From positions 1 to 64,000 of the IMG/VR virus record IMGVR_UViG_3300034012_003212: 64,000 nucleotides of DNA. One strand, given 5' to 3'. Of this stretch, positions 6,850 through 20,990 are shown one piece after another. This DNA is from a virus. The position numbers and the translations under genes are program-made. Numbering within the stretch: the stretch's first letter is position 1; each line of letters begins with the position of its first letter. The notes beneath the pieces are model-generated. The model saw only the letters and a list, made by a program, of their open reading frames with translations. It made no database searches and was not told the origin of the DNA.

Positions 6850-6885
6850 TAGAAATACATCAAAAAAACCAAGCCGAAAACGTTT

Positions 6886-7038: not shown

Positions 7039-7114
7039 TCGAGCATACCTCCCAACCAAACACCTCCTCGTAAGACAACACACCCCCAGAAAAAAAACAT
7101 CTGCATTTTTCAAA

Positions 7115-7149: not shown

Positions 7150-7187
7150 TAACGAATATTTCAACAACTTTTCAAGGAGTGCCAGAA

Positions 7188-7466: not shown

Positions 7467-7491
7467 TTCACTAACATTACAAGTACCATAA

Positions 7492-7602: not shown

Positions 7603-7688
7603 CATTTGCTGCTATAAACCTCGATTGTGTGAATTACGGTGATACACCTAACCCGTGCGTATTTCTATTTATACTAACAACAGAATCC

Positions 7689-7886
7689 ATGGACTTAGAG
7701 AATGCTAATGTTAAGATTTTTAACTTCTTGCGCACCTCTGTGTGTAACTCCGTGTATGACTCCATATGGGACCCCAGAAGGGACTCCACATGGGACTCCG
7801 TATGGGACTCCTTGAGGAATCCCGTGTTGGACTCCGTTGTTATTAGATTACAGGAACCCATAAGAGAAGAAAGGAAACGAGGATGA
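7689..7886 (+). CDS. SV-repeat microprotein 1, 65 aa
   Basis: This opens block 1 and starts MDLEN instead of MNLEN. The ATG has no strong Shine-Dalgarno, and the frame is open upstream to 7530. The core includes DSTWDSVWDSL; the end is PIREERKRG. Confidence 0.7.
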   Translation: MDLENANVKIFNFLRTSVCNSVYDSIWDPRRDSTWDSVWDSLRNPVLDSVVIRLQEPIREERKRG

Positions 7887-8086
7887 ACTTAAAGAATATT
7901 GATATTAAGATTGGTAGGTCCATGCGGATCTCCGTGGAAAAATCCGCGTGGAACTACGTGTTGGACTCCGTGAGGCACTCCGAGTGGAATTCCGTGTGGT
8001 GGTCCGTGAGTTACTACGTGGAGAATTCCGCGTTGGACTCCGTGAATGATGGACTACAAAGACTCATAAGACAAGAAAGGAAATAA
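7883..8086 (+). CDS. SV-repeat microprotein 2, 67 aa
   Basis: ATGA overlap with unit 1. It ends REERK-type as RQERK with a TAA two bases before the next ATG, one of the few junctions without overlap. Core includes WNSVWWSVSYYV. Confidence 0.75.
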   Translation: MNLKNIDIKIGRSMRISVEKSAWNYVLDSVRHSEWNSVWWSVSYYVENSALDSVNDGLQRLIRQERK

Positions 8087-8088
8087 GG

Positions 8089-8283
8089 ATGAACTTAGAG
8101 AATGTTAACTATAAGATCTGTGATTCTGCGTATGTATCCTCGTGGAACTCTGTGAGGGGCTCTGTGGTGGTCTCCGTGTGGAACTCTGTGAGTAACTCCG
8201 TGAGTAACTCCGTGAATGATAGACTACAAGAACCCATAAGAGAAGAAAGAGGAAGCGAAGATGAACTTAGAGAATGTTGGTAA
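8089..8283 (+). CDS. SV-repeat microprotein 3, 64 aa
   Basis: The stop phase is shifted, so the frame runs 23 bases into unit 4 and gains the end GSEDELRECW, which is unit-start DNA read out of phase. N-terminus KICDSAYV is shared with unit 8. Confidence 0.7.
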   Translation: MNLENVNYKICDSAYVSSWNSVRGSVVVSVWNSVSNSVSNSVNDRLQEPIREERGSEDELRECW

Positions 8284-8455
8284 AAATATAGAATTCGCAT
8301 CGATCTCCATGGAAAACTTCGCGTTGGGCTCCGTATGGGACTCCTCTATGTACTACTCCATATGTGACTCTGTGAATTTCTTCGTGGAAAACTCAGTGGA
8401 AAACTCAGTGAATTTTAGACTACAGCAACCCATAAGACAAAAAAAACAGGGATGA
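8261..8455 (+). CDS. SV-repeat microprotein 4, 64 aa
   Basis: Starts inside the tail of unit 3. The core is less regular near the start (IEFASISMENFALG) and ends VENSVENSVNF; tail RQKKQG. Confidence 0.75.
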   Translation: MNLENVGKNIEFASISMENFALGSVWDSSMYYSICDSVNFFVENSVENSVNFRLQQPIRQKKQG

Positions 8456-8646
8456 ACTTAAAGGATGTTGAAGATAAGATTGAGGAGTCTGTGTCATACC
8501 CGTTGCACTCCGTGAGGGACTCCGTGAGGAATTCCATTAGCAACTCCATATGGCCCTCCAATTGGTACTCCGTGTGGAACTCCGTGGGGGGCTCTGTGAA
8601 TATTGGACTAAAAGGATCCATAAGAAAAGAAAGGAAACGAGGATGA
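8452..8646 (+). CDS. SV-repeat microprotein 5, 64 aa
   Basis: Carries the cassette WPSNWYSVWNSV that recurs in units 29 and 33. Tail is GLKGSIRKERKRG, shared in part with unit 22. Confidence 0.75.
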   Translation: MNLKDVEDKIEESVSYPLHSVRDSVRNSISNSIWPSNWYSVWNSVGGSVNIGLKGSIRKERKRG

Positions 8647-8855
8647 ACTTAGAGAATGTTGGTAGGAAGATTTGGGATTACCCTAGGTCAGACTATATGT
8701 TGAACGATGTGTTTGATTGTGTGTATGGATCCGCCTTTACCTTCGCGCGGGACTCCGCGTCCGGTTTCGGGAGGGACTCTGTGTTTGAACCCGCGTGGGA
8801 ATCCGTGTATTATGGAGTGCAAGAACCCATAAGACAAGAATGGGAACAAGAATGA
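8643..8855 (+). CDS. SV-repeat microprotein 6, 70 aa, divergent core
   Basis: Conserved ends, but the core (DYPRSDYMLNDVFDCV, FARDSASGF) has lost most SV periodicity. Tail RQEWEQE resembles that of unit 35. Confidence 0.7.
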   Translation: MNLENVGRKIWDYPRSDYMLNDVFDCVYGSAFTFARDSASGFGRDSVFEPAWESVYYGVQEPIRQEWEQE

Positions 8856-9061
8856 ACTTAGAGAATGTTGATAATAAGATTGGTAAGTCCGTGGAGAACT
8901 CCGTTTTGGGCTCCGTGTGGAACTCCGTGTGGAACTCAATGGAGGACTCTGCGGGGAACTCCGTATGGTGCTTTGTGGGGGACTCTGTGGAGGACTCTGT
9001 GCAGAATGGACTACAAGAATCCATAAGAGAAGAGAGAAAACGAAAGAGGAAACGAGGATGA
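8852..9061 (+). CDS. SV-repeat microprotein 7, 69 aa, twin of unit 21
   Basis: By eye the 210 bases are identical to unit 21 (11578-11787). Distinctive tail REERKRKRKRG with an added KRKR, and the core cassette NSMEDSAGNSVWCFV. Confidence 0.8.
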   Translation: MNLENVDNKIGKSVENSVLGSVWNSVWNSMEDSAGNSVWCFVGDSVEDSVQNGLQESIREERKRKRKRG

Positions 9062-9267
9062 ACTTAGAGAATGTTAATTATAAGATCTGTGATTCTGCGT
9101 ATGTATACTCGTGGAGCTCCGTGAGGGACTCTGCGTGGAACTCTGTGATGGACTCCGTGTGGGGGGTGGTGTGGGCATCCGTGGATCATCCCATGAGTAA
9201 CTCCGTGGGGGACTCTGTGGATTTTGGACTACAAAGACCCATACGAGAAGAAAGGAGTCAGGGATGA
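9058..9267 (+). CDS. SV-repeat microprotein 8, 69 aa
   Basis: N-terminus KICDSAYVYSW is shared with unit 3. Core includes VWGVVWASVDHPM. Tail RPIREERSQG is shared with units 10 and 46. Confidence 0.75.
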   Translation: MNLENVNYKICDSAYVYSWSSVRDSAWNSVMDSVWGVVWASVDHPMSNSVGDSVDFGLQRPIREERSQG

Positions 9268-9482
9268 ACTTAGAGAATGTTGGATATATGAGTGTGAATT
9301 ATGTGAGTGACTTGGTGAGTTTATCCATGAGAGACTCCGCGTGGAACTCCGTGTGGGACTTTTTGAGGGACTCCGTGGGGAACTCTGTGAGGGACTCTGT
9401 GGTGGTCTCCGTGTGGAACCCCGTGTGGGACTCCGTGAATATTGGACTACAAGAACCCATAAGAGAAGAAAGGGGCCGGTAA
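9264..9482 (+). CDS. SV-repeat microprotein 9, 72 aa
   Basis: Lacks the usual KI after the start (GYMSVNYVSDLVSL). Ends REERGR with TAA directly abutting the next ATG. Cassette WDFLRDSV is shared with unit 28. Confidence 0.75.
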   Translation: MNLENVGYMSVNYVSDLVSLSMRDSAWNSVWDFLRDSVGNSVRDSVVVSVWNPVWDSVNIGLQEPIREERGR

Positions 9483-9692
9483 ATGAACTTAGAGAATGTT
9501 AGAGATAAGATTGGGAACTCCGTGAGTATCTCCGTGAATAACTCCGTGTGGTTGTCCGTGTGGAACTCCGTGGATAACACCATGTGGAACTCCGTGAGGA
9601 ACTCCGTGTATTTCTCCATGGGGAACTCCGTGAGAAACTCCGTGAATTTTAGACTACAAAGACCCATACGAGAAGAAAGGAGTCAGGGATGA
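9483..9692 (+). CDS. SV-repeat microprotein 10, 69 aa
   Basis: Regular core with about eleven tetrapeptides; RNSVYFSM cassette is shared with units 34 and 50. Confidence 0.75.
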   Translation: MNLENVRDKIGNSVSISVNNSVWLSVWNSVDNTMWNSVRNSVYFSMGNSVRNSVNFRLQRPIREERSQG

Positions 9693-9874
9693 ACTTAGAG
9701 AATGTTAAAGATAATATTATGAACTCCGTGAGGAACTCCGTGTATTTCTCCGTGGGGAACTCCGTGTGGGACTCCGTGTGGTACTCCGTGTGGCGCTCCA
9801 CGCAGAACTCCGTGAGGAAGTCCGTGGATATTGGACTAACAGAACCCATACTACGAGAAAGGAGACGAAGATGA
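9689..9874 (+). CDS. SV-repeat microprotein 11, 61 aa
   Basis: Begins with the same RNSVYFSV cassette as its left neighbour and ends ILRERRRR, one of the most basic tails. Confidence 0.75.
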   Translation: MNLENVKDNIMNSVRNSVYFSVGNSVWDSVWYSVWRSTQNSVRKSVDIGLTEPILRERRRR

Positions 9875-10077
9875 ACTTAAAGAGTATTGAGGATGAGATT
9901 CATTCATGGATTGACTCCGTGGAGAGTTCCCTGAAAAACTCCATGTGGAATTACGTGTGTATTTACAGGTCGTATTCCGTGTGCGACCCCGTGTATAGCT
10001 TTGTTGAGAACTCTGTGCGGGATTCTGTTTATATTAGAATACAAAGACCTATAATAGAAGAATTAAAACGAAGATGA
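9871..10077 (+). CDS. SV-repeat microprotein 12, 68 aa
   Basis: N-terminal SIEDEIHSWIDSV is shared with unit 24; tail RIQRPIIEELKRR is shared with units 31 and 32 in block 2, linking the two blocks. Confidence 0.75.
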   Translation: MNLKSIEDEIHSWIDSVESSLKNSMWNYVCIYRSYSVCDPVYSFVENSVRDSVYIRIQRPIIEELKRR

Positions 10078-10250
10078 ACTTAAAGAATGTTGAAAATATG
10101 ATTTGGGAATCCGTGAGGGACTCCTTGTGGTATCCCATGCGGATATCTATATCAAACTCCGTGAAAAAGTCCGTGTGGGTCTCCGCTAGGGAATCTGTTT
10201 ATTATGGAGGAATACAACTACCCATAGCACGAGAAAGGAGACGGGGATGA
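10074..10250 (+). CDS. SV-repeat microprotein 13, 58 aa
   Basis: Short unit with ATGA overlaps at both ends. Core WYPMRISISNSVKKSV; tail has an extra Gly (YYGGIQLPI) and ends RERRRG. Confidence 0.75.
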   Translation: MNLKNVENMIWESVRDSLWYPMRISISNSVKKSVWVSARESVYYGGIQLPIARERRRG

Positions 10251-10444
10251 ACTTAGAAGATGTTGGTAGGAAGATTGGGGGCTCCATGGATGACTTCGTG
10301 ATGAACTCCGTGTGGTGGTCCGTGGCCAACTCCGTGTGGAACTCCGTGTGGAACTCCGTGTACAACCCCGTGTGGAACTTTGTGAGGAACTCGGTGTATG
10401 ACGGAATAAAACTACCCATAAGAGTAGAGAGGAAACGAAGATGA
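10247..10444 (+). CDS. SV-repeat microprotein 14, 65 aa
   Basis: Core WNSVWNSVYNPVWNFV is very regular. Tail KLPIRVERKRR. Confidence 0.75.
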   Translation: MNLEDVGRKIGGSMDDFVMNSVWWSVANSVWNSVWNSVYNPVWNFVRNSVYDGIKLPIRVERKRR

Positions 10445-10650
10445 ACTTAGAGCATGTTGAAAATAAGATTCGGGATTTTGTAAATATCTCAGTGGGGTTT
10501 TCTGTACAGGAATTTGCGTGGAACACCATGACTAAACCCGCGTGGTATTCCATATGGTGCCCCGCGTATAGCTCTGTGGAGAACTCCATGTGGGACTCCG
10601 TGAATATTGGACTACAAAAACCTGTAAGAGAAGAAAGAAAACAAAGATGA
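10441..10650 (+). CDS. SV-repeat microprotein 15, 69 aa
   Basis: Core partly eroded (VQEFAWNTMTKPAWYSIW) but four-residue spacing is kept. Tail KPVREERKQR. Confidence 0.75.
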   Translation: MNLEHVENKIRDFVNISVGFSVQEFAWNTMTKPAWYSIWCPAYSSVENSMWDSVNIGLQKPVREERKQR

Positions 10651-10820
10651 ACTTAGTGCATGTTGGACATAAGATTGTGAAGTCCGTGGAGAACTCCGTG
10701 TGGAACTCCGTGTGGAACTCCGTGTGGAACTCCGTGAGGTTCTCCGTGTGGGACTCCGTTTTGGACTCCGTGAAGACTAGACTACAATTACCCATAAGAG
10801 AAGAAAGGGTACAGGGATGA
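10647..10820 (+). CDS. SV-repeat microprotein 16, 57 aa
   Basis: Contains the purest tandem run in block 1, three WNSV in a row coded by near-identical 12-mers, a sign of recent slippage expansion. Begins MNLVHV. Confidence 0.75.
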   Translation: MNLVHVGHKIVKSVENSVWNSVWNSVWNSVRFSVWDSVLDSVKTRLQLPIREERVQG

Positions 10821-11011
10821 ACTCAGAGAATGTTAGTGGGAAGATTTGGAAGTTTCGGAGCTCCGTAGATAACTCCGTGTGGAACTTCGTGTGGAACTCT
10901 GTGAGGTTCCCCGGGAGGAACTCGGTGAGGGACTCTGTGAGGAACTCCGTGTGGGACTCTGTAAATATTGGACTAAAAGAACCCATAAGAGAAGAGAGGA
11001 AACAGGGATGA
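10817..11011 (+). CDS. SV-repeat microprotein 17, 64 aa
   Basis: Begins MNSENV. Core has an off-pattern RFPGRNSV segment; tail KEPIREERKQG. Confidence 0.75.
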   Translation: MNSENVSGKIWKFRSSVDNSVWNFVWNSVRFPGRNSVRDSVRNSVWDSVNIGLKEPIREERKQG

Positions 11012-11193
11012 ACTTAGAGAGGGTTGAAGATAAGATTTGGGGCTACGTAGAGTATTCCGTATGGATATCTGTGGATAAACTTGTGTGGGACTCCGTGTGG
11101 TACTCCGTGTTTGACTCTGTATGGAACTCCGTAAGGGACTCTGTGAATTTTAGACTCCAAGAACCCATAAGAGAAGAGATGAAACAAAGATGA
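11008..11193 (+). CDS. SV-repeat microprotein 18, 61 aa
   Basis: VEYSVWISVDKLVW near the start is shared with unit 33 of block 2. Tail REEMKQR. Confidence 0.75.
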   Translation: MNLERVEDKIWGYVEYSVWISVDKLVWDSVWYSVFDSVWNSVRDSVNFRLQEPIREEMKQR

Positions 11194-11387
11194 ACTTAGA
11201 GAATGTTGGAAATAAAATTAGAACAAACGTATGGTATTATGAGTGGGGACATAGTTTCAACTATGCTAATGAATCGTTAGGACGTTCCATATATTTATCT
11301 GTTTATGCCCACATCTTTGATGGCATATTGAACTCTTTATATATTAGACTCCGAGAACCCATAATAGCACAAAAGAAACAGGTATGA
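11190..11387 (+). CDS. SV-repeat microprotein 19, 65 aa, degenerate core
   Basis: Ends are conserved, but the core (WYYEWGHSFNYANESL) has almost no SV pairs and its base composition is more AT-rich. Tail REPIIAQKKQV. Confidence 0.7.
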   Translation: MNLENVGNKIRTNVWYYEWGHSFNYANESLGRSIYLSVYAHIFDGILNSLYIRLREPIIAQKKQV

Positions 11388-11581
11388 ACTTAGAGAATGC
11401 TAGAGATAAGATTGCGAACTCATTGTGGAAATCCGTGGAGGGTCCTGTGTGTACCTCCACGGGGAAATCCGTGCAGGACGATGGGTGGTTCCCCCTGATG
11501 ACCTCCGTGTGGAACTCCGTGAGGGACTCAGTGGATATTGGACTAACAGAACCCATAAGAAAAGAAAGGAAACAAGGATGA
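11384..11581 (+). CDS. SV-repeat microprotein 20, 65 aa
   Basis: Starts MNLENARDKIANS. Mid-core GPVCTSTGKSVQDDGW departs from the pattern; the last two tetrapeptides are canonical. Confidence 0.75.
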   Translation: MNLENARDKIANSLWKSVEGPVCTSTGKSVQDDGWFPLMTSVWNSVRDSVDIGLTEPIRKERKQG

Positions 11582-11787
11582 ACTTAGAGAATGTTGATAA
11601 TAAGATTGGTAAGTCCGTGGAGAACTCCGTTTTGGGCTCCGTGTGGAACTCCGTGTGGAACTCAATGGAGGACTCTGCGGGGAACTCCGTATGGTGCTTT
11701 GTGGGGGACTCTGTGGAGGACTCTGTGCAGAATGGACTACAAGAATCCATAAGAGAAGAGAGAAAACGAAAGAGGAAACGAGGATGA
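11578..11787 (+). CDS. SV-repeat microprotein 21, 69 aa, twin of unit 7
   Basis: Same 210 bases as unit 7 by eye; identity continues about 30 bases into the next unit (to aattataagat) and then ends, marking a recombination junction. Confidence 0.8.
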   Translation: MNLENVDNKIGKSVENSVLGSVWNSVWNSMEDSAGNSVWCFVGDSVEDSVQNGLQESIREERKRKRKRG

Positions 11788-11981
11788 ACTTAGAGAATGT
11801 TAATTATAAGATTGGGAACTCGGTGAGGGACTCTGTGAACAACTCCTTGTGGAACTCCGTGTGGGACTCTGTGTTTAACCCTGTGAGGTACTCTGTATGG
11901 GATTCTGTGAATGACTCCATGGGGAGCTCTGTGAATATTGGACTAAAAGGATCCATAAGAAAAGAAAGGAAACAAGGATGA
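11784..11981 (+). CDS. SV-repeat microprotein 22, 65 aa
   Basis: N-terminus VNYKI is that of unit 8 up to the junction, then the sequence switches to GNSVRDSVNNSLW. Tail GLKGSIRKERKQG as in unit 5. Confidence 0.75.
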   Translation: MNLENVNYKIGNSVRDSVNNSLWNSVWDSVFNPVRYSVWDSVNDSMGSSVNIGLKGSIRKERKQG

Positions 11982-12175
11982 ACTTAGAGCCGATTGATAA
12001 CAAGATTTGGATCTCCATACGGGACTCCGTGGATAACACCGTGCGGAACTCCGTGAATAAATCCGCGTGGAACCACGTAAGTTTCTTCGTGTGGAACTCC
12101 GTTTTGGACTCCGTGTGGATCTCTGTGAATATTGGACTACAAAACCCCATAAGAGAAGAGAGGAAACAGGGATGA
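11978..12175 (+). CDS. SV-repeat microprotein 23, 65 aa
   Basis: Begins MNLEPIDNKIW. Core RNSVNKSAWNHVSFFV; tail QNPIREERKQG. Confidence 0.75.
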   Translation: MNLEPIDNKIWISIRDSVDNTVRNSVNKSAWNHVSFFVWNSVLDSVWISVNIGLQNPIREERKQG

Positions 12176-12378
12176 ACTTAGAGAGTATTGAGGATGAGAT
12201 TCATTCATGGATTGACTCCGTTTCGGGCTCCATGTGGAAACCTGTGTGGGATTATATGTTGTACTCCGCGAGGGGCTCCGTGTGGGCCTCCGTGATGGAC
12301 TCCGCTGGGGACTATGTGGAGGACTCTGTGCAGAATGGACTACAAGAACACATAAGAGAAGAAAGGGCCGGTAAATGA
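12172..12378 (+). CDS. SV-repeat microprotein 24, 68 aa
   Basis: SIEDEIHSWIDSV N-terminus of unit 12 joined to a VEDSVQNGLQ end like that of units 7/21. Ends REERAGK. Confidence 0.75.
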   Translation: MNLESIEDEIHSWIDSVSGSMWKPVWDYMLYSARGSVWASVMDSAGDYVEDSVQNGLQEHIREERAGK

Positions 12379-12581
12379 ACTTAGAGAATGTTGATAAACC
12401 ATATTTTCACATTGTAGATAACACCCTATGGAATCGTGTGTACTCAGTATGGAAATCGTCATTAACAGTTTCCTCACATAATTTCGTGCGTGATTCTGTA
12501 GATATATCCATGAGATCTGTACAACTCTCGTTGCACGAGGGCGTATTAAGACCCGTAAGAGAAGAAAGAAAACAAGGATGA
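12375..12581 (+). CDS. SV-repeat microprotein 25, 68 aa, degenerate core
   Basis: After MNLENVDK the core (YFHIVDNTLWNRVY) is eroded. End is GVLRPVREERKQG. Confidence 0.7.
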   Translation: MNLENVDKPYFHIVDNTLWNRVYSVWKSSLTVSSHNFVRDSVDISMRSVQLSLHEGVLRPVREERKQG

Positions 12582-12739
12582 ACTTAGAGGATGTTGGATA
12601 TAAGATCGGTGATTCTGTGTGTGTATCCGTGTGGTATTCTGTGAGTGACTATGCGTGGAACTCTGTGCAGGACTCCATAAAGGACCTTGCGTATAATGGG
12701 CTAAAAGAACCCATAAGAGAAGATAACAAACAAAGATGA
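12578..12739 (+). CDS. SV-repeat microprotein 26, 53 aa
   Basis: Short unit, ATGA at both ends. Core VCVSVWYSVSDYAWNSV; tail KEPIREDNKQR. Confidence 0.75.
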   Translation: MNLEDVGYKIGDSVCVSVWYSVSDYAWNSVQDSIKDLAYNGLKEPIREDNKQR

Positions 12740-12909
12740 ACTTAGAGAATGTTGGAACTAAGGTTTGGGGCTCCGTGTGGAACTCCATGAGGTTCTTCGA
12801 GAGGGACTCCATGTGGGACTCCGTGAGGGACTCTATGTATAACTCCGTGTGGGACTCCGTGTTCGATGGGTTACAACTACCAATAAGAAAAGAGGGGAAA
12901 CAAGGATGA
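12736..12909 (+). CDS. SV-repeat microprotein 27, 57 aa
   Basis: GTKVW start and RFFERDSMWDSV are shared with unit 31, the first unit of block 2. Tail RKEGKQG. Confidence 0.75.
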   Translation: MNLENVGTKVWGSVWNSMRFFERDSMWDSVRDSMYNSVWDSVFDGLQLPIRKEGKQG

Positions 12910-13103
12910 ACTTAGAGAATGTTAAAGATAGGATTTGGTACTCCGTGGGGAACTCCGTGAGTGACCCCATGCGGAAATCCGTGTGGGACTTTTTGAGGGA
13001 CTCCGTGAAGTATCCTGTGTATAACTCCGTGGTGGTCTCCGTGTGGGACTCCGTGGATATTGGACTACAAGAACCCATAAGAGAAGAAAGGGCACAGGGA
13101 TGA
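12906..13103 (+). CDS. SV-repeat microprotein 28, 65 aa
   Basis: MRKSVWDFLRDSV cassette related to unit 9; NSVVVSVWDSV later in the core. Tail REERAQG. Confidence 0.75.
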   Translation: MNLENVKDRIWYSVGNSVSDPMRKSVWDFLRDSVKYPVYNSVVVSVWDSVDIGLQEPIREERAQG

Positions 13104-13270
13104 ACTTAGAATCGGTTGGTGTGAAGATAAGAGACACCGTGTGGAACTCCGTGTGGCCCTCCAATTGGTACTCCGTGTGGAACTCCGTGTTTGACCCCGT
13201 GAGGAACTCCGTGTGGGACTCCTTGAATATTGGACTACAAGAACCCATAAGAGAAGAAAGGGGCCGGTAA
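13100..13270 (+). CDS. SV-repeat microprotein 29, 56 aa
   Basis: WPSNWYSVWNSVFDPVRNSV is shared with unit 33. Ends REERGR with TAA abutting the next ATG, as in unit 9. Confidence 0.75.
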   Translation: MNLESVGVKIRDTVWNSVWPSNWYSVWNSVFDPVRNSVWDSLNIGLQEPIREERGR

Positions 13271-13528
13271 ATGAACTTAGAGAATGTTGGACATAAGATT
13301 TGGGGCTCCGTGTGGAACTCCATGAGGAAATTCGTGGGTATCTCCGTGAGGGTCTCTGCGTGGAAATCTGTGAGGTACTCCATGGGTATCTCCGTGGGAG
13401 ACTCTGTGTGGGACTCCGTGAAGGGCTCCGTGGGGGTCTCCGTGTTGAACTCTGTGTATGGAATACAAGACGCAATAAGAGAAGAAAGATTCAACAATGA
13501 GGCGGCACAAAAAAATATTTTTTTTTGA
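13271..13528 (+). CDS. SV-repeat microprotein 30, 85 aa, last of block 1
   Basis: Longest intact unit, with about sixteen tetrapeptides. Its end is unique (AIREERFNNEAAQKNIFF) and runs into the T-run of the following promoter, so no further unit is coupled to it. Confidence 0.75.
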   Translation: MNLENVGHKIWGSVWNSMRKFVGISVRVSAWKSVRYSMGISVGDSVWDSVKGSVGVSVLNSVYGIQDAIREERFNNEAAQKNIFF

Positions 13529-13549
13529 AAGTAGGATTGTGTATGTTTG
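13518..13549 (+). promoter_or_regulatory. Bacteroidota-type promoter (first of a pair) after block 1
   Basis: ATATTTTTTTTTGAAA, then 15 bases after the T-run TATGTTTG (13542-13549). Nearly the same layout and upstream bases recur about 100 bases downstream. Confidence 0.65.
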
Positions 13550-13619
13550 CATAGATATTTTTTCCAGGGAATATGAACCTGATTTGACATCAAGATTTTT
13601 TTAGTTTTCCAATAAAATA

Positions 13620-13651
13620 TTTTTTTTTGAAATCAGAAGTACGTATATTTG
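13620..13651 (+). promoter_or_regulatory. Bacteroidota-type promoter of the DUF6745 gene
   Basis: ATATTTTTTTTTGAAA followed by TATATTTG (13644-13651), a full match to TAnnTTTG, about 49 bases before the ATG at 13700. It gives the DUF6745 gene and its companion their own transcription inside the array. Confidence 0.75.
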
Positions 13652-13699
13652 CAGAGGGTATAACCTCACAGTTTTTACAACTTTTTAAGGATAGCCATT

Positions 13700-14692
13700 A
13701 TGGCAAAAAAATATTCACCAAGCAATCCGCTTGAGAAACTCACTCCTGAAATGGAGGCGCTCATCCCAGTCGTCAGGGATGAATGGATTAACCGAGCATA
13801 CAAAGGGTTGAATCCAAATGATATTGACGAGAAGAAGGTGAAGAGTGCTGTACATTGGATATACAAAAAATCGGACTTGCCCAAGCCGATGGTCATCATA
13901 ACGGATTCGCCAAAAGCTGCTCAAGATGCAGCAAATGAATTGTATAAGAAGCATGTTGACCCATCAGCAAAGCGTCAGTATTTTCCATTTTCTGACAGTC
14001 TTTCTGTATCCGACTTCCGCTGGGTTGCATTCTATGATTACTTCACCCGCATTGGCGTCTTGCAAGACAAGACATTCAATAAATACATGGAGTACACAAA
14101 ACTTGGCATTTATGACACAATCAAACTTCACGATGTTTGTATTGTTGTGAAAATGCCTGAGTATGTTAAATCCACTATTGTGCGTGATGTTCGCGTCCCG
14201 CACAGTGAGGATTCTCCTGCTGTTAAGTTCATTGATGGTGATTCTTATTATTTCTGGAATGGTACATTGGTTCCGGAGAAATGGATCATGCGCAAAGACG
14301 AGATCACACAGAATGATATCATCTCAGAAGACAATGCCGAAAAGCGTCGTTGTCTCATGGAAATCCTTGGAGCAAAGAGGTATTATGACATCATCTCTGA
14401 TGGAAAGGGTCTTAAACTCATTGACGAGGACACAGACAATCAGGGATTCCCTATGAGATTGTATGAGACAACAAAGAATGATTCTATCGTCAACAAAAAG
14501 GTTCAATTCCTTGAAGTGACTGATCCATCAACAGGGCGAGTGTATAACATCTACCCTCCTAATCAGAATGCAAAGAATGTATGGGATGCGAAGGCACAGA
14601 CATTCAGTTCTGAGAAATTGTACGTCCGTCAGGGTGATGTTGGACTGACGAAGATAGGATACGATGAAGCGCATCCTGTGCAAGAAACATAA
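13700..14692 (+). CDS. DUF6745-family protein lacking the internal SV repeat
   Basis: The N-terminus (LTPEMEALIPVVRDEWI, then PKPMVIITDSPKAA at 62-74) and the main domain (RWVAFYDYF 107-115, DSPAVKFIDGDSYYFWNG 171-188, NAEKRRCLMEILG 212-224) match the DUF6745 family, whose function is unknown. Homologues as I recall them carry many SV tetrapeptides between the SP motif and W.AFYDYF. Here that stretch is only about 35 residues with the remnant SDSLSVSDF. The flanking 55 microproteins supply just this repeat type, so a complex in trans is a reasonable inference. AAGGA lies about 9 bases before the ATG. The C-terminus holds VRQGDVGLTKIG, a motif I associate with the start of the companion protein. 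Codon use is ordinary, unlike the repeats. Confidence 0.85.
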   Translation: MAKKYSPSNPLEKLTPEMEALIPVVRDEWINRAYKGLNPNDIDEKKVKSAVHWIYKKSDLPKPMVIITDSPKAAQDAANELYKKHVDPSAKRQYFPFSDSLSVSDFRWVAFYDYFTRIGVLQDKTFNKYMEYTKLGIYDTIKLHDVCIVVKMPEYVKSTIVRDVRVPHSEDSPAVKFIDGDSYYFWNGTLVPEKWIMRKDEITQNDIISEDNAEKRRCLMEILGAKRYYDIISDGKGLKLIDEDTDNQGFPMRLYETTKNDSIVNKKVQFLEVTDPSTGRVYNIYPPNQNAKNVWDAKAQTFSSEKLYVRQGDVGLTKIGYDEAHPVQET

Positions 14693-14751
14693 TGTAATTT
14701 TTATAGTATAATATATACACCTAATTAACTTTTTTTTCAATAGGAGATTTT

Positions 14752-15048
14752 ATGGATAAGTCAGAAAGAATCCGCAGAGTGATTGCTCGTGGTGAGCATT
14801 CCAACCATTCACATGTTGTGTGTGGTGATGATGTAACAATTCGTGAAGAGAAGGGCACAATTTTTGTCACAGTTGGCAATAGTGGTGCAGTTCTTCGTCA
14901 CTTGCTTGAGATGGAGTACATCGAAACAGGCAAGGAAGTATGGACAAAGGAACATGAAGATGTGCCGCTTCCTCAGGGTGAATATAAATTTGTTCCCCAG
15001 ATTGAGTACAATCCGCTCGATGAAACCATCCAAAGAACAAAGGACTAA
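14752..15048 (+). CDS. DUF6745-linked small companion protein, 98 aa
   Basis: Contains ARGEHSNHSHVV, then HEDVPLPQGEYKFVPQIEYNP. This matches a small protein often found beside DUF6745 genes (pattern ARGE.tGH.H ... H..v.LP.G.Y.v..Q.EY.P), function unknown. The invariant His residues suggest metal binding or catalysis. It follows the DUF6745 gene by 59 bases, has AGGAG about 6 bases before the ATG, and is followed by a strong terminator, so the two form a unit. Homologues often begin with RQGDV, which here ends the preceding gene instead. Confidence 0.7.
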   Translation: MDKSERIRRVIARGEHSNHSHVVCGDDVTIREEKGTIFVTVGNSGAVLRHLLEMEYIETGKEVWTKEHEDVPLPQGEYKFVPQIEYNPLDETIQRTKD

Positions 15049-15075
15049 TCATATTAGTTCAAAAGATTGGTACAT

Positions 15076-15109
15076 AAAAATGGCACGCCTTAAACGTGCC
15101 ATTTTTTTT
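15076..15109 (+). terminator. Rho-independent terminator between companion gene and block 2
   Basis: Perfect inverted repeat TGGCACG / CGTGCCA, extended by A/T pairs, with a short CTTAAA-type loop and eight T. It sits 16 bases before the first unit of block 2, so block 2 must rely on read-through or an unseen promoter. Confidence 0.85.
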
Positions 15110-15125
15110 AACAGAGGAAACAAAG

Positions 15126-15323
15126 ATGAACTTAGAGAATGTTGGAACTAAGGTTTGGGACTCCATGTGGAACTCCATGAGGTTCTTCGAGAGGGACTCC
15201 ATGTGGGACTCCGTGTGGAACTCCGTGTGGGGTTCCGTAAGGGTCTCCGTGTGGGACTCTGTGTGGGATTCTGTTTATATTAGAATACAAAGACCTATAA
15301 TAGAAGAATTAAAACGAAGATGA
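15126..15323 (+). CDS. SV-repeat microprotein 31, 65 aa
   Basis: First of block 2, with AGAGGAAAC as ribosome-binding site just after the terminator. N-terminal half as in unit 27; tail RIQRPIIEELKRR as in unit 12. Confidence 0.75.
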   Translation: MNLENVGTKVWDSMWNSMRFFERDSMWDSVWNSVWGSVRVSVWDSVWDSVYIRIQRPIIEELKRR

Positions 15324-15505
15324 ACTTAGAGAATGTTGGATATGAGATTTGGAAATCCGTGAGTTCCTCCGTGAGGAACTCTGTGGATGACTCCGCGTGG
15401 AACTCCGTGTGGGGTTCCGTGAGGGTCTCCGTGTGGGACTCTGTGCGGGATTCTGTTTATATTAGAATACAAAGACCTATAATAGAAGAATTAAAACGAA
15501 GATGA
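15320..15505 (+). CDS. SV-repeat microprotein 32, 61 aa
   Basis: Second half (WNSVWGSVRVSVWDSV and the tail) nearly copies that of unit 31, so the pair looks like a recent tandem duplication with a changed 5' part. Confidence 0.75.
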   Translation: MNLENVGYEIWKSVSSSVRNSVDDSAWNSVWGSVRVSVWDSVRDSVYIRIQRPIIEELKRR

Positions 15506-15723
15506 ACTTAGAGATTGTTGAAGATAAGATTTGGAGCTCCGTGGAGTATTCCGTGTGGATCTCTATGGATAAAATCGTGTGGAACTCCGTGTGGCCCTCC
15601 AATTGGTACTCCGTGTGGAACTCCGTGTTTGACCCCGTGAGGAACTCTGTGATGGACCCTGTGAGGGACTCTGTTTATGGTGGATTACAAATACCCATAA
15701 GACAAGAAAGGGAACGAGGATGA
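15502..15723 (+). CDS. SV-repeat microprotein 33, 73 aa
   Basis: Joins VEYSVWISMDKIVW (compare unit 18) to WPSNWYSVWNSVFDPVRNSV (compare unit 29): a cross-block mosaic. Confidence 0.75.
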   Translation: MNLEIVEDKIWSSVEYSVWISMDKIVWNSVWPSNWYSVWNSVFDPVRNSVMDPVRDSVYGGLQIPIRQERERG

Positions 15724-15905
15724 ACTTAGAGAATGTTAAAGATAAGATTTGGAACTCCGTGAGGAACTCCGTGTATTTCTCCATGAAGAACTCCATGAGG
15801 AAATCTGCATGGAACTCCGTGATGGGCTCTGTGTGGGCCTTTGTGTGGGACTCTGTTTATGGTGGACTACAAGAACCCATAAGAGAAGAAAGGAGACAAG
15901 GATGA
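15720..15905 (+). CDS. SV-repeat microprotein 34, 61 aa
   Basis: KDKIWNSVRNSVYFSM start and MRKSAWNSV cassette are shared with unit 48. Tail REERRQG. Confidence 0.75.
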   Translation: MNLENVKDKIWNSVRNSVYFSMKNSMRKSAWNSVMGSVWAFVWDSVYGGLQEPIREERRQG

Positions 15906-16108
15906 ACTTAGAGCAGGTTGAATATAAGATTGGTAACTCCTTGTATGACTCCAAGTGGAACTCTGTGAGGTTCTCCGTGAGGAACTCCGTGTGGAAGTCC
16001 CTGTTGAGCGTGTGGGACTCCGTGTGGAAATCCGTGTTGGTCTCCGTGAGGGACTCTGTGCAGAATGGACTAAAAAACCCCATAAGAGAAGAATGGGGGC
16101 AAGAATGA
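15902..16108 (+). CDS. SV-repeat microprotein 35, 68 aa
   Basis: Core has a 3-base phase slip (KSLLSVWDSV). It is the left parent of unit 38. Tail REEWGQE. Confidence 0.75.
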   Translation: MNLEQVEYKIGNSLYDSKWNSVRFSVRNSVWKSLLSVWDSVWKSVLVSVRDSVQNGLKNPIREEWGQE

Positions 16109-16302
16109 ACTTAGATCTGGTTGGTGGGAAGATTTGGGATTCCATGTTGAACTCCGTGTGGGAATCCGTGTGGAACTCCGTGTTTGACTCCGTGAGGGAC
16201 TCTGTGGGGGGCTCCGTGAAGTATTCCGCATGGAACTCCGTGTGGGACTCTGTGAAAGTTGGACTACAAGAACCCATAAGAGAAGAAAGGAAACGAGGAT
16301 GA
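16105..16302 (+). CDS. SV-repeat microprotein 36, 65 aa
   Basis: Starts MNLDLVGGKIW. Its second half (RDSVGGSVKYSAWNSV) is the right parent of unit 38. Confidence 0.75.
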   Translation: MNLDLVGGKIWDSMLNSVWESVWNSVFDSVRDSVGGSVKYSAWNSVWDSVKVGLQEPIREERKRG

Positions 16303-16484
16303 ACTTAGAGCATGTTGAATATAAGATTGGTAACTCCGTGTATGACTCCATGTGGAACTCTGTGTGGGGTTCCGTGAGGGTCTCCGTGTGGGACTCCGTG
16401 GTGGTTTCCGTGGCGTATTTTGTGGGGGACTCCGTGAATATTAGACTACAGATACCCATAAGACAAGAAAGGGAACAGGAATGA
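16299..16484 (+). CDS. SV-repeat microprotein 37, 61 aa
   Basis: WGSVRVSVWDSV is shared with units 31 and 32; VVVSVAYFV resembles unit 45. Tail RQEREQE. Confidence 0.75.
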   Translation: MNLEHVEYKIGNSVYDSMWNSVWGSVRVSVWDSVVVSVAYFVGDSVNIRLQIPIRQEREQE

Positions 16485-16735
16485 ACTTAGAGCCGGTTGA
16501 ATATAAGATTGGTAACGCCGTGTATGACTCCAAGTGGAACTCTGTGAGGTTCTCCGTGTGGAACTCCGTGTGGAAGTCCCTGTTGAGCGTGTGGGACTCC
16601 GTGTGGAAATCCGTGTTGGTCTCCGTGAGGGACTCTGTGGGGGGCTCCGTGAAGTATTCCGCATGGAACTCCGTGAGGGATTCTGTGTATTTTGGACTAA
16701 CAGAACCCATAAGACAAGAAAGGAAACGGGGATGA
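16481..16735 (+). CDS. SV-repeat microprotein 38, 84 aa, recombinant of units 35 and 36
   Basis: The first two thirds follow unit 35, including its KSLLSVWDSV slip; the rest follows unit 36 (GGSVKYSAWNSV). The switch lies in the shared bases ctccgtgagggactctgtg. Confidence 0.8.
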   Translation: MNLEPVEYKIGNAVYDSKWNSVRFSVWNSVWKSLLSVWDSVWKSVLVSVRDSVGGSVKYSAWNSVRDSVYFGLTEPIRQERKRG

Positions 16736-17025
16736 ACTTAGAGCATGTTGGTAGAAAGATTTGGGAATCCTTGAAGAACTTTGCGTGGGATTTTGTGGGC
16801 ATTGGACACAAAAACACCCATAAGACGAGAAAGAGAAAAATGGGGACGAGGATGAACTTAGAGAATGTTGGTAGGAAGATTGATATCCGCATGTGGTTCT
16901 CCGTGAGGATATCCGCGGAGAACCACACATTAAACTCCGTGGATATCTTCGTGTATTTCCCCGTGAGGGACTCTGTGTATGATGGAATACAACTACCCAT
17001 AAGAGAAGAAAAGAAACAAGGATGA
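16732..17025 (+). CDS. SV-repeat unit 39, frameshifted and fused to unit 40 (97 aa)
   Basis: A one-base change in the tail (gga cac aaa aac acc) shifts the frame, so the normal stop is missed and reading continues in frame into unit 40. Without it the tail would read KNPIRREREK.. and stop at the usual ATGA. The unit has only about three tetrapeptides left. Either a broken gene or a natural two-unit fusion. Confidence 0.6.
   Translation: MNLEHVGRKIWESLKNFAWDFVGIGHKNTHKTRKRKMGTRMNLENVGRKIDIRMWFSVRISAENHTLNSVDIFVYFPVRDSVYDGIQLPIREEKKQG
16852..17025 (+). CDS. SV-repeat microprotein 40, 57 aa
   Basis: Own ATG with GACGAGG upstream, also reachable by read-through from unit 39. Core IRMWFSVRISAENHTLNSV is partly eroded; tail REEKKQG. 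Confidence 0.7.
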   Translation: MNLENVGRKIDIRMWFSVRISAENHTLNSVDIFVYFPVRDSVYDGIQLPIREEKKQG

Positions 17026-17177
17026 ACTTAGAGAATGTTGGATATAAGATTTGGGATTTCGCGCCCATCCGATTGGAACAACCCACATGGTACTCTGTGA
17101 TGGAACCTGTGAATATTAGACTAATACAATCCATAAGTAACGAAAGGGAACACGAAGATGAACTTAGAGAGTGTTAG
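17022..17177 (+). CDS. SV-repeat microprotein 41, 51 aa, degenerate
   Basis: Core FAPIRLEQPTWYSVMEPV; tail SISNEREHEDELREC runs 20 bases into the next unit, as in unit 3. Confidence 0.65.
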   Translation: MNLENVGYKIWDFAPIRLEQPTWYSVMEPVNIRLIQSISNEREHEDELREC

Positions 17178-17355
17178 TTGGAAGATTTCAAGATGTGTAC
17201 ATTCTTATGTGTATATTCCTGCTGAAAGTTTCATATTGAACTCCGTGAATGTCTCACGTTGGATTTCTATATGGGATTTTACTATGGATCCGTTATTACA
17301 ATCGGTTAACAACAGGATACAAACGCATATAAGACAAGAAAGGGGACGGGGATGA
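17158..17355 (+). CDS. SV-repeat microprotein 42, 65 aa, degenerate
   Basis: Core VHSYVYIPAESFILNSV has few canonical repeats. Tail THIRQERGRG keeps the ribosome-binding bases. Confidence 0.7.
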   Translation: MNLESVSWKISRCVHSYVYIPAESFILNSVNVSRWISIWDFTMDPLLQSVNNRIQTHIRQERGRG

Positions 17356-17486
17356 ACTTAGAGAATGTTAAAGATAAGATTTGGAACTCCGTGAGGAACT
17401 CCGTGGAGATTTCCGTGTGGGACTCTGTGGGAAAATCTGTGGATGGACTACACGGATCCATAATAAAAGAAAGGGAACAGGGATGA
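17352..17486 (+). CDS. SV-repeat microprotein 43, 44 aa
   Basis: Short unit with about five tetrapeptides, all canonical (RNSVEISVWDSVGKSV). It lacks the residue pair before GL (VDGLHGSI). ATGA at both ends. Confidence 0.7.
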   Translation: MNLENVKDKIWNSVRNSVEISVWDSVGKSVDGLHGSIIKEREQG

Positions 17487-17689
17487 ACTTAAATGCTTTT
17501 ACTACAAATAATATAAAGGTGAGTAACTTCATGTGGAACTCCGTAGCGGACTCCGTGTGGAACTCCGTGTTGAACTCCGTGGAGATTTCCGTGTGGGGCT
17601 CCGTGTATAACTCCGTGAGGGACCCTGTGTGGAACTCTGTTTATGATGGACTTCAAGAACCCATAAGAGAAGAAAGGAAAAAAAGATGA
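17483..17689 (+). CDS. SV-repeat microprotein 44, 68 aa
   Basis: Unusual N-terminus MNLNAFTTNNIKVSNF in place of MNLENV..KIW, then a regular core sharing EISVWGSV with its neighbour. Confidence 0.75.
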   Translation: MNLNAFTTNNIKVSNFMWNSVADSVWNSVLNSVEISVWGSVYNSVRDPVWNSVYDGLQEPIREERKKR

Positions 17690-17883
17690 ACTTAGAGAAT
17701 GTTGAAGATAAGATTTGGGAATCCGTAGGGAACTCCGTGTGGGACTCCGTGGTGGTCTCCGTGAGGGAGTCCGTGGTGGTCTCCGTGAGGGGCTCTGTGG
17801 CGTATTCTATGGGGTACTTTGTGGCGAACTCCATGGATATTGGACTGCAAGAACCCATAAGAGAACAAAGGGAAAGAAGATGA
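17686..17883 (+). CDS. SV-repeat microprotein 45, 65 aa
   Basis: Core contains an 8-residue repeat of its own (VVVSVRES VVVSVRGS), a fresh 24-base duplication. Tail REQRERR. Confidence 0.75.
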   Translation: MNLENVEDKIWESVGNSVWDSVVVSVRESVVVSVRGSVAYSMGYFVANSMDIGLQEPIREQRERR

Positions 17884-18065
17884 ACTTGGCGTATGTTGGT
17901 ATTGAGATTGGGGACTACGTGATGGTCTCCGCGCTGGAGTCCGTGAGGATTTTCGTGCCAGACTCTGTAAGTGAGTCTGTGGATGACTTCGTGTGGGTCT
18001 CCTTGAGGGCCTCCGTGAATTTTAGACTACAAAGACCCATACGAGAAGAAAGGAGTCAGGGATGA
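17880..18065 (+). CDS. SV-repeat microprotein 46, 61 aa
   Basis: Starts MNLAYVGIEIG. Tail NFRLQRPIREERSQG is shared with unit 10. Confidence 0.75.
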   Translation: MNLAYVGIEIGDYVMVSALESVRIFVPDSVSESVDDFVWVSLRASVNFRLQRPIREERSQG

Positions 18066-18296
18066 ACTTAGAGAATGTTAGTGTTAAGATTTGGAACTCC
18101 GTGTGGTGGTCCGTGGGAAACTCCGTGTGGGTCTCCATGCGGGACTTTTTGAGGAGGGATTCCGTGGGGAACTCTGTGAGGGACTCCGTGGTGGTCTCCG
18201 TGAGGGACTCCGTGGATCTCCGTGAGGAACTCTGTATATAACTCAGTGGATTTTAGACTACAAGAACCCATAAGACAAGAAAGGAGACAGGGATGA
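18062..18296 (+). pseudogene. SV-repeat unit 47, frameshifted
   Basis: The frame is normal to about 18213, where a 12-mer has lost 2 bases (tccgtggatc), giving an early stop at 18241 (59 aa ending DLREELCI). The remainder (RNSVYNSVDFRLQEPIRQ) is intact in another frame and still ends at the expected ATGA, 52 bases after the early stop, so coupling to the next unit is broken. Confidence 0.75.
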
Positions 18297-18487
18297 ACTT
18301 AGAGAATGTTAAAGATAAAATTTGGAACTCCGTGAGGAACTCCGTGTATATCTCCATGGAGAACTCCGTGTGGTACTCCATGAGGAAATCTGCATGGAAC
18401 TCCGTGAGGAACTCTGTGTGGGACTTTGTGTGGGACTCTGTGGATGGACTACAAGAACCCATAAGACAAGAAAGGAGACAGGGATGA
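18293..18487 (+). CDS. SV-repeat microprotein 48, 64 aa
   Basis: KDKIWNSVRNSVYISM and MRKSAWNSV shared with unit 34. It lacks one residue before GLQ (SVDGLQ). Confidence 0.75.
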   Translation: MNLENVKDKIWNSVRNSVYISMENSVWYSMRKSAWNSVRNSVWDFVWDSVDGLQEPIRQERRQG

Positions 18488-18621
18488 ACTTAGAGAATGT
18501 TAGAGATAGGATTTGGTACTCCGTGAGGAACTCCGTGATGGGCTCTGCGAGGATCTCTGTGAGGGATTCTGTGTATTTTGGACTAACAGAACCCATAAGA
18601 CAAGAAAGGAGACAGGGATGA
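18484..18621 (+). CDS. SV-repeat microprotein 49, 45 aa
   Basis: Short unit with five tetrapeptides; its first 15 residues (RDRIWYSVRNSV) equal those of the next unit. Confidence 0.7.
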   Translation: MNLENVRDRIWYSVRNSVMGSARISVRDSVYFGLTEPIRQERRQG

Positions 18622-18791
18622 ACTTAGAGAATGTTAGAGATAGGATTTGGTACTCCGTGAGGAACTCCGTGTATTTCTCCATGGAGAACTCCGCGGGGTA
18701 CTCCGTGGATAAATCCGTGAGGGACCCTGTGAGGGACTCTGTGGATTTTGGACTAGCAGCACCCATAAGACAAGAAAGGAGACAGGGATGA
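18618..18791 (+). CDS. SV-repeat microprotein 50, 57 aa
   Basis: Same start as unit 49, then YFSMENSAGYSVDKSV. Tail LAAPIRQERRQG. Confidence 0.75.
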   Translation: MNLENVRDRIWYSVRNSVYFSMENSAGYSVDKSVRDPVRDSVDFGLAAPIRQERRQG

Positions 18792-18979
18792 ACTTAGAGA
18801 ATGTTAGAGATAAAATTTGGAACTCCGTGGATACCCCCGTGTGGCACTCCGTTTTGGACTCTGTGAATAACTCCTTTTTCTTGAGGGAATCCGTGTGGAA
18901 CTCTGCGAGGAACTCCGTGTGGAAGTCTGTGAATACTGGACTACAGTACCTAATAAGACGAGAAAGGGAACAGGAATGA
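18788..18979 (+). CDS. SV-repeat microprotein 51, 63 aa
   Basis: Phase-broken core (NNSFFLRESVWNSARNSV). Tail LIRREREQE. Confidence 0.75.
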   Translation: MNLENVRDKIWNSVDTPVWHSVLDSVNNSFFLRESVWNSARNSVWKSVNTGLQYLIRREREQE

Positions 18980-19158
18980 ACTTAGAGAATGTTAGAGATA
19001 TGATTTGGTACATAGGAGACGATGTTTTCTCGAGATTTGTTAAAATCCTCTGGTACCCGCCAGCAGAATCAGGGTATCAAAACATATTGACTCCTATGTG
19101 TGACTGCTTATACAATAGACTACAGACATCTATAAGACACCAAAGATGGCTCGGATGA
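18976..19158 (+). CDS. SV-repeat microprotein 52, 60 aa, degenerate
   Basis: Only the two ends are recognisable; the core (DDVFSRFVKILWYPP) has no SV repeats. Tail RHQRWLG. Confidence 0.65.
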   Translation: MNLENVRDMIWYIGDDVFSRFVKILWYPPAESGYQNILTPMCDCLYNRLQTSIRHQRWLG

Positions 19159-19280
19159 ACTTAGATAATATTTGGAAATCCATGAGGCGTTCCGTGGATA
19201 AATCCATGAATAACTCCGCGTGGAACTCCGTGAATTTTAGACTGCAAAACCCCGTAAGACGAGAAAGAAGACATGGATGA
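19155..19280 (+). CDS. SV-repeat microprotein 53, 41 aa, shortest unit
   Basis: MNLDNIWKSM start without the KI spacer, five tetrapeptides, tail NPVRRERRHG. ATGA at both ends. Confidence 0.7.
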   Translation: MNLDNIWKSMRRSVDKSMNNSAWNSVNFRLQNPVRRERRHG

Positions 19281-19474
19281 ATTTAACTGATGTTGATGGT
19301 ATAACCCAACATTTCATATGGCGTCTTATTACACGGCCCGCATGGGATTCTATTGTGAATTTTACAGGTGGATCCATGAGATCAGTTGATCACCCGGTGA
19401 AGGAATCGGTATGTAAAAGTCTACAAATGAAAATAAGATTCAACGTGCCGGTGGTAAAAATTCTATCGGATTAA
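19277..19474 (+). CDS. SV-repeat microprotein 54, 65 aa, degenerate
   Basis: MNLTDVDGI start, weak core (RPAWDSIVNF, MRSVDHPVKESV), and a new tail KIRFNVPVVKILSD. The ATGA-coupled chain ends here. Confidence 0.65.
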   Translation: MNLTDVDGITQHFIWRLITRPAWDSIVNFTGGSMRSVDHPVKESVCKSLQMKIRFNVPVVKILSD

Positions 19475-19538
19475 TTCAATGGCGCCGTGTTAGATAATTT
19501 ATTGATATGATTTGTTTGTTAAAAAAAAGGAAATAGTC

Positions 19539-19760
19539 ATGAATTTACAAAACGCTGATTGTTTAAATGGATCAGTATTAGAATCCATTCTAAAATCTTG
19601 TTTTAGTTCCATCGAGAAACCTTTAGTGGAAATCACTTTGAGTTCAGTCGACCCCAAGATGTTAGAATATATTTGGGAAAACACGAGAGGAATGTTGTGG
19701 AACTCTGTTCTTTTAAGATTACAAAATCCAATAAGGGACGATTTCGCTACCAAAATTTAG
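19539..19760 (+). CDS. Outlying SV-family relative, unit 55, 73 aa
   Basis: Preceded by its own AAAAAAAAGGAAATAG leader, 64 bases after unit 54. MNLQNA start and the end LWNSVLLRLQNPIRDD place it in the family, while the core has no repeats. It may be an old founding copy or a decayed one. Confidence 0.6.
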   Translation: MNLQNADCLNGSVLESILKSCFSSIEKPLVEITLSSVDPKMLEYIWENTRGMLWNSVLLRLQNPIRDDFATKI

Positions 19761-19841: not shown

Positions 19842-20990
19842 ATGAAAAATGTGTTATTATCATTCAACGATTTCATAAAAAATAGGCTAAATGAAGGGGT
19901 TCGAGTCAGAGAAGACGGGGAATCAGGATGGATATTTGATTTTGATCGTGATCGGGAAGAAGATTTCATGTCATTGAAATTTTTAAACAGACCATCAAGG
20001 ACGCAAATATACAAGAATACTGACGTTAGCTATGAGTATTTTTATTGTTACAAGCTTGAAAAGGAAGAAGATACATCGGATTTTGTGAAGGCTGTAAAAT
20101 ACATAGATGAAGCACTCATAAATCCACAGGATCTTGAAAGATTTGTGAAAAAGGGAGTGATCGCACTCGACAAGAAACACGACCTGACTAAATTTAATTG
20201 CATCATCTACCCAAAATCGACTTCGAAGATATTAACAGAATTCGCCAAATTTGCTTCAGAAAAAAGTGGTGTGGCAAAACTGATCCCAGACGCACTTGTT
20301 AAAGTTCCAAATGAGGACATCACGTTAGATTTTGCAGCAATAGGAAGGCTCAAAGACCCAAAGACGAGGAAGGAAATTCTTAGGAACTTCAATAGAGCTG
20401 TAAAGGATCCGAATGGAAATTGGAAACGAAAGCCATTCAAGATGACAGATGTATATGTCAAATTTCGTAAGTTCATAACAAACTTTTTGAAATTCGGGGA
20501 TTCTGTGATAGAAAATAACCGGATGAAAAGAGACGTCTATAATGCAATAACTGCAAGTAATGTTCTCCTCATAGATGACTTCAGGACAACGGGGTCCACG
20601 ATCAAGGAGATGATCAAGAACATCGCAGAAATAGGTCCTAAACACATCGTCATATGTTGTCTGATTGTAATAGAAAAGTACAAGGAAAAGGACGTAGAAC
20701 GAGATAGAGACCGGATGGAAAGGAATATGCTTGACAATGCCGGAATACCATACAATGTCATAAAGAAGGACGGAAAAGACGTAAGAGTGGTCGACAAATC
20801 AAAGCTTGATAGGAAGTACATGGAATATGTATACAGTCATGAAGCGGGCGATTGGATCAAAAACCCGGGATTTGTGGGTGAATTTGAACACCAAGAAAGA
20901 ATAGAAGATAAATTCGGGAACGTGATACCCAATCCTTTTTATGACCCAAACTATAAACCCCTGAAAGAATCAAAAAAATTTTTCAGGTAA
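19842..20990 (+). CDS. Phosphoribosyltransferase-like protein, 382 aa
   Basis: Residues about 242-254 (VLLIDDFRTTGST) are the PRPP-binding signature of type I phosphoribosyltransferases. A core PRTase fold is likely from about residue 110 to 290, with a charged N-terminal extension and a C-terminal part (EAGDWIKNPGFVGEF) of unknown kind. Several phages carry such enzymes for nucleotide salvage or base exchange; the substrate cannot be told. The gene stands alone between the microgene array and the next promoter, which overlaps its 3' end. Confidence 0.75.
   Translation: MKNVLLSFNDFIKNRLNEGVRVREDGESGWIFDFDRDREEDFMSLKFLNRPSRTQIYKNTDVSYEYFYCYKLEKEEDTSDFVKAVKYIDEALINPQDLERFVKKGVIALDKKHDLTKFNCIIYPKSTSKILTEFAKFASEKSGVAKLIPDALVKVPNEDITLDFAAIGRLKDPKTRKEILRNFNRAVKDPNGNWKRKPFKMTDVYVKFRKFITNFLKFGDSVIENNRMKRDVYNAITASNVLLIDDFRTTGSTIKEMIKNIAEIGPKHIVICCLIVIEKYKEKDVERDRDRMERNMLDNAGIPYNVIKKDGKDVRVVDKSKLDRKYMEYVYSHEAGDWIKNPGFVGEFEHQERIEDKFGNVIPNPFYDPNYKPLKESKKFFR

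Follow-up and report, generated by a model that had tools for sequence, protein, structure and literature searches.

What are more than fifty very small, related genes, set end to end, doing in the genome of a phage? The locus that raises this question lies in the window, a stretch of 64,000 nucleotides that forms the first 64 kb of the 260,658-bp virus record IMGVR_UViG_3300034012_003212. A sequence-only reading had described here about 55 consecutive microgenes built of x-x-Ser-Val (xxSV) units and had taken them for an undescribed phage system. The microgenes are real, and 54 were found, all on the + strand within 7689-19760 and covering 10,242 bp; their two blocks are interrupted by a gene for a DUF6745 protein and by a small conserved gene, here called R, neither of which that reading had identified. 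With a DUF6745 gene between the blocks, the locus can be explained in terms of a tract carried in cis or in trans. The same tetrapeptide tract is widespread among phages, where it usually lies inside DUF6745 proteins, and the array would be the gene-split trans form of the hypervariable segment that most phage DUF6745 proteins keep internally. From the sequence comparisons given below, this reading is assigned about an even chance. No description of such a system was found in the literature searched, so that part of the earlier claim holds, although the system is not confined to this phage.

The array and the genes between its blocks

The microgenes have a median length of 65 residues (range 41-85) and the consensus MNLENVxxKI-(xxSV)n-xDSVxxGLQxPIREERxQG. 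Block 1 (7689..13528, + strand), recognized from the chain of open reading frames (ORFs), tblastn and the consensus, contains 30 chained tetrapeptide-repeat microgenes, and 25 of its 29 junctions are exactly -4 nt. Block 2 (15126..19760, + strand) contains another 24, the final ones of which (19277 and 19539) are strongly diverged. An identical 4-nt ATGA overlap is present at 44 of the 52 within-block junctions. A Shine-Dalgarno-like motif lies 5-18 nt upstream of 39 of the 54 microgenes, compared to 14% of background ATGs, and the codons for EERKxG at the C-terminus of one microgene contain this ribosome-binding motif of the next. When one unit was used as a tblastn query, 54 places were found in the entire record, every one inside the array region. 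That the array is far beyond chance is thus confirmed. Long antisense ORFs with TEF/TES repeats were rejected as genes, being shadow frames of the SV codons, and Pfam matches of the tract to DUF4816 fell below the cut-off and were treated as compositional. Phage records gave no match in a nucleotide search and none with a microprotein query, for which the low-complexity filter was perhaps responsible.

The DUF6745 gene (13700..14692, + strand) encodes a protein of 330 residues, which matches PF20530 with E=4e-11 and 42.9 bits, against a curated Pfam cut-off of 27, and was also found as DUF6745 by the genome search (E=2e-12). Comparison of the linker showed that it has no internal tetrapeptide tract. 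R (14752..15048, + strand; own profile E=4e-21) has the pattern GE-x-S/T-x-H-x-H ... EH ... Y-x-P and is a relative of members of phrog_27831; two His residues are invariant in the alignment of its family. It is a regular companion of DUF6745, lying within 2.5 kb of 62 of the 71 DUF6745 genes with enough flanking sequence, and a diverged R-like gene is found near several of the other nine. The remaining conserved neighbors are ordinary phage genes.

A tract in one protein or in many genes

Scanning of viral contigs for xxSV repeats gave 79 loci. At most of these the repeat is held by a single protein of 260-500 residues, belonging to DUF6745 or to a second family, and the tract of DUF6745 runs for 13 to 131 tetrads between the N- and C-terminal parts. 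Most of the remaining loci are arrays of microgenes whose constant ends differ widely (MESVKD...; MKQSLNNSV...NKINETIT; M[KI]LGKSIKDKV...PKIK). Proteins of the second family (L006, L028, L031, L093 and about 25 further loci) end in RAYxSxFF...YPFQxxVDLWxxGLVPSFDGKxWRLHSG, and occur as two or three tandem copies at L006, L075 and L093. At another locus, L007, a segment at 5540-7970 between the two arrays of the contig encodes an RtcB-like and an RNA-ligase-like protein, both recognized by eye.

DUF6745 proteins were also sought by their C-terminal domain alone, which makes that sample independent of the repeat. Domain scans plus the tract scan gave 92 distinct DUF6745 proteins of viral contigs, 72 with an internal tract and 20, including that of the window, with none. 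The tracts are written in several dialects (xxSV, xxQV, xxNV, xxNI, xxAV, xxAT and xxQL), each largely uniform within one protein. By a strict automatic rule, arrays were present in the flanks of none of the 72 tract-bearing genes and of 11 of the 20 tract-less ones (Fisher p=3e-9); restricted to the tract-independent subset, the comparison gave 0/53 and 8/16 (p=1.5e-6). Once manual reading and whole contigs, followed up mainly for tract-less cases, were added, 19 of the 20 tract-less genes had an array on their contig. At L193, L197 and L213 it lies elsewhere on the contig, at L192, L147 and L210 it had been missed by the automatic rule, L098 and L089 share one contig that has an array, and the array of L214 is diverged. 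No SV array is present on twelve tract-bearing whole contigs. Independent xxQV and xxAV arrays likewise adjoin tract-less DUF6745 genes. In the window, the array has a period of four residues and, like the DUF6745 tracts, keeps positions 3 and 4 constant; it is genetically linked to a tract-less DUF6745. These comparisons indicate that the tract exists either inside DUF6745 or as separate genes.

In either form the tract is hypervariable. The variable residues of cis tracts are mostly W, R or G at the first position (x1) and D or A at the second (x2), and the codon for R is AGG or CGG, depending on the phage. The residues at x1 and x2 overlap between arrays and cis tracts, the alphabet of the arrays being the wider, with 87 combinations in the window and 68 in L010. 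L056 and L123 have DUF6745 proteins with 100% identity in the C-domain and 98.7% identity in the N-domain, yet their tracts hold about 20 and about 26 tetrads, respectively, and the order of these differs. The pair L017 and L025 has the same pattern. L010 and L203 have 94.6% nucleotide identity up to the array and are rearranged from there. Comparison of these sequences shows that the tract changes much faster than the remaining DUF6745 protein.

Within the window, the microgene at 8852..9061 (+ strand) is identical in all 69 codons to that at 11578..11787 (+ strand), with no synonymous or non-synonymous difference, a recent duplication or conversion within the array. Since other pairs of units, such as 13100/15502 and 15720/18484, have segments in common that are offset from each other, the array is undergoing duplication and reshuffling. 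The unit at 8643..8855 (+ strand) retains both ends in translation around a largely degenerate core, as do those at 11190-11387, 17158-17355 and 18976-19158 (+ strand); together with the units starting at 19277 and 19539, these make up the microgenes that have kept one or both ends and largely lost the SV core. A truncated unit at 18062..18241 (+ strand) has its missing C-terminal part out of frame ahead of the next start, 18293.

Bacterial and archaeal genomes seldom have xxSV tracts: one scan, covering about 85,000 species, gave 14 loci, again mostly in DUF6745. DUF6745 and R occur together in a Mycobacterium abscessus prophage record, where the tract is of the xxQL dialect, and in Microcystis phage LMM01, where DUF6745 (gp174) lacks a tract and R is gp175. 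On a Streptomyces cadmiisoli plasmid (L252), a tract-less DUF6745 and R adjoin an STM4011-STM4015 cluster, which includes two radical SAM proteins, a hydrolase, STM4014 and STM4015.

What the microproteins may do

To judge from the sequence comparisons, a DUF6745/R machine most likely has the microproteins as its exchangeable and diversified subunits. They would dock onto the tract-less DUF6745/R core through the leader and tail, which are constant, and may serve there as interchangeable recognition parts, so that one core could be fitted with dozens of variants. These variants would be co-produced through translational coupling, and the repertoire would be renewed by duplication and reshuffling of units. 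As to its use, the best guess, and the weakest step, is that the repertoire is directed at host factors that vary, for example defense proteins or targets of takeover. A more general proposal is tentative and rather less probable than an even chance: that phages share a diversity system in which a conserved DUF6745/R machine works with a hypervariable tetrapeptide code recognizing many different targets. It is equally tentative that this code, in which W, R or G predominate at x1 and D, A or N at x2, may be supplied either by an internal tract or by an operon of microproteins.

Several points weigh against the proposal that the array is the split form of the internal tract. Among the 20 tract-less genes, L166 is the sole remaining case with no array detected; none was detected with the tract-less DUF6745 of the Streptomyces plasmid, nor in phage LMM01, in which only an xxSV array was sought. 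The whole-contig follow-up was concentrated on tract-less cases. The contigs are metagenomic, and misassembly of a 12-nt repeat could exaggerate the reshuffling. Structure prediction is of little help. A representative full unit (9483..9692, + strand) was predicted as one long helix, residues 3-68, with a mean predicted local distance difference test (pLDDT) score of 79.9 and a predicted template modeling (pTM) score of 0.39, which is too weak for argument; the DUF6745 core was predicted confidently, whereas the cis tract had pLDDT <50. Neither sequence nor fold match assigns a function to DUF6745 or R, and action of the microproteins with them is a deduction from sequence comparison. An average ratio of non-synonymous to synonymous differences (pN/pS) near 1, given below, is also compatible with cores under relaxed selection.

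The alternative that fares best is that DUF6745, R or both form a modifying enzyme, for which the cis tract or the trans microproteins would be multi-site substrates, as in ribosomally synthesized and post-translationally modified peptides (RiPPs). In its favor are the tandem genes with a fixed leader and a hypervariable core, which lie beside one conserved gene pair, and the two invariant His residues of R, which hint at a metal site. Fused and split RiPP precursors, known from the borosins, offer a parallel to the cis/trans split, and prochlorosins provide an example of one enzyme with many precursors. Nevertheless, this is unlikely. Searching the PDB with the DUF6745 fold yielded nothing significant, and searching viral models gave significant E-values only to other DUF6745 and uncharacterized proteins; no enzyme fold was found for DUF6745, and R matched no established enzyme family in Pfam. 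Neither a protease nor an exporter was recognized adjoining the array, and the units have 41-85 residues and contain little Cys.

It is quite unlikely that the tetrads, with W, R or G plus D, N or A, are sticker-and-spacer repeats forming polymers or compartments, and the same holds for the version in which DUF6745/R would nucleate such a scaffold and array size would set its dosage. Trp, Arg and Asp or Asn are indeed regularly spaced in most dialects, and the very low confidence of the cis-tract prediction is compatible with disorder. Dosage alone leaves unexplained both the fast diversification and the array of locus L214 (G014). This contig of 368 kb has a DUF6745 gene without the tract and R, and behind them, at 12.6-34 kb, some 83 microgenes that have the leader M-x-(L/I)-G and are mostly chained via 4-nt overlaps. 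The repeat pattern is gone, and the cores are mostly unrelated to one another, with 8 core pairs at E<0.01. Gly4 of the leader belongs to the rule used for selecting these microgenes; its codon varies among GGA, GGT, GGG and GGC.

An array that persists without repeats strongly disfavors the view of arrays as mere repeat DNA. In a neutral origin, slippage of a 12-nt repeat and recombination would have made and spread the array, and its proteins would have little function. The 12-nt unit is nearly uniform within any one phage, which shows recent amplification at the DNA level; the identical duplicate unit fits a neutral origin as well, as does an overall pN/pS of 0.96 among paralogous segments inside the window array, an average over all position classes. 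Resolved by position, these segments have 0.35 non-synonymous differences per codon at x1 and 0.40 at x2, with almost no synonymous ones, whereas the Ser codon has 14 synonymous and 5 non-synonymous changes and is conserved through synonymous change. Between phages, Ser-Val is retained with differing codons (TCC/T-GTG in the window, TCA-GTA in L010, TCT-GTC in L009, AGC-GTC in L017 and TCG-GTC in L050), as are the main residues at x1 and x2, which shows that selection acts on the protein. Since AGC and TCN are not connected by one synonymous step, the repeats of different phages most likely arose independently and converged. Taken together with the 54 open frames, the 44 exact overlaps and the association with tract-less DUF6745, these findings make neutral expansion improbable. 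The sequence-only reading had held that these are genes and not just repeat DNA, and it is borne out by the retention of Ser-Val through differing codons and by the leader and coupling kept in the array of L214. Finally, a silent or semi-silent store of variants recombining into an expressed copy, which the segments shared at differing offsets might suggest, is very improbable, given that no unit lacks a start of its own, that a coupled stop and a ribosome-binding site are found in most, and that the DUF6745 encoded between the blocks contains no tract into which variants could be moved.

Genomic surroundings and comparison with known systems

The larger genes of the window appear T4-like by eye (capsid, sheath, prohead protease and recombinase-like proteins), and a UvsW-type helicase was recognized by Pfam. 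Just beyond the array, 19842-20990 encodes a phosphoribosyltransferase-domain protein with the N-terminus MKNVLLSFNDFIKNRLNE, which we take to resemble T4-type capsid-targeting leaders; similar leaders are present on many proteins of the record and of the contig of L012. Outside the window, a second very large tandem array extends over 27 kb at 197,389-224,941 of the record (L259-L261). It consists of about 55 leucine-rich-repeat-like paralogues of about 108-214 residues (MIEIxVRKET...CSQEALDSFGSLEALKVNGDL...LTKLPDGL), with a weak LRR match in Pfam, and a relative lies inside the window at 26224-27183 on the - strand. Repeat-protein arrays take up about 40 kb of this phage. Seven or eight paralogues with the N-terminus M-S-E-W-I-T-D-R-L-P are found at 183,136-187,839 of the record (L258-L259), and among them is a pentapeptide-repeat protein (183,924-184,379).

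To turn to known systems, this appears to be the first link of DUF6745, its small partner gene R and arrays of 50 to 80 phage microgenes; no mention of DUF6745 was found in the literature searched. The cis/trans split provides direct comparative evidence on what the microgenes belong to, and the M. abscessus prophage, which is tract-bearing, and the cultured phage LMM01, which is tract-less, open the way to laboratory tests.

Diversity-generating retroelements also place hypervariable positions within a constant frame in phages. The array differs in that variation appears to come through reshuffling of units and many copies. A retroelement had been considered on account of NNC-like x2 codons and was dropped, as reverse transcriptase (PF00078) is absent from the 260,658-bp record, which may be incomplete, and the synonymous-site adenines of L010 are constant. 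That near-identical phages are hypervariable in the tract suggests an active mechanism of diversification, one for which this record has no reverse transcriptase.

TALE, PPR and pentapeptide repeat proteins resemble the array in having tandem repeats with constant positions, and the first two also have a two-residue variable code per repeat. The array differs by its four-residue period, which excludes the five-residue pentapeptide class, by the lack of any sequence relation found and by the spread of its units over many genes. With prochlorosins and other RiPPs in which one enzyme serves many precursors, it shares many small genes, a constant leader, a variable core and a conserved partner. 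It differs in its repeat-based cores, in having no recognized modifying enzyme, exporter or protease, in its phage genome and in the existence of a cis form fused inside another protein. Lastly, the gene between the blocks is itself a member of DUF6745 (PF20530, phrog_31813), other phage members of which hold the same repeat internally; the member in the window is without the tract, which exists here as 54 separate genes.

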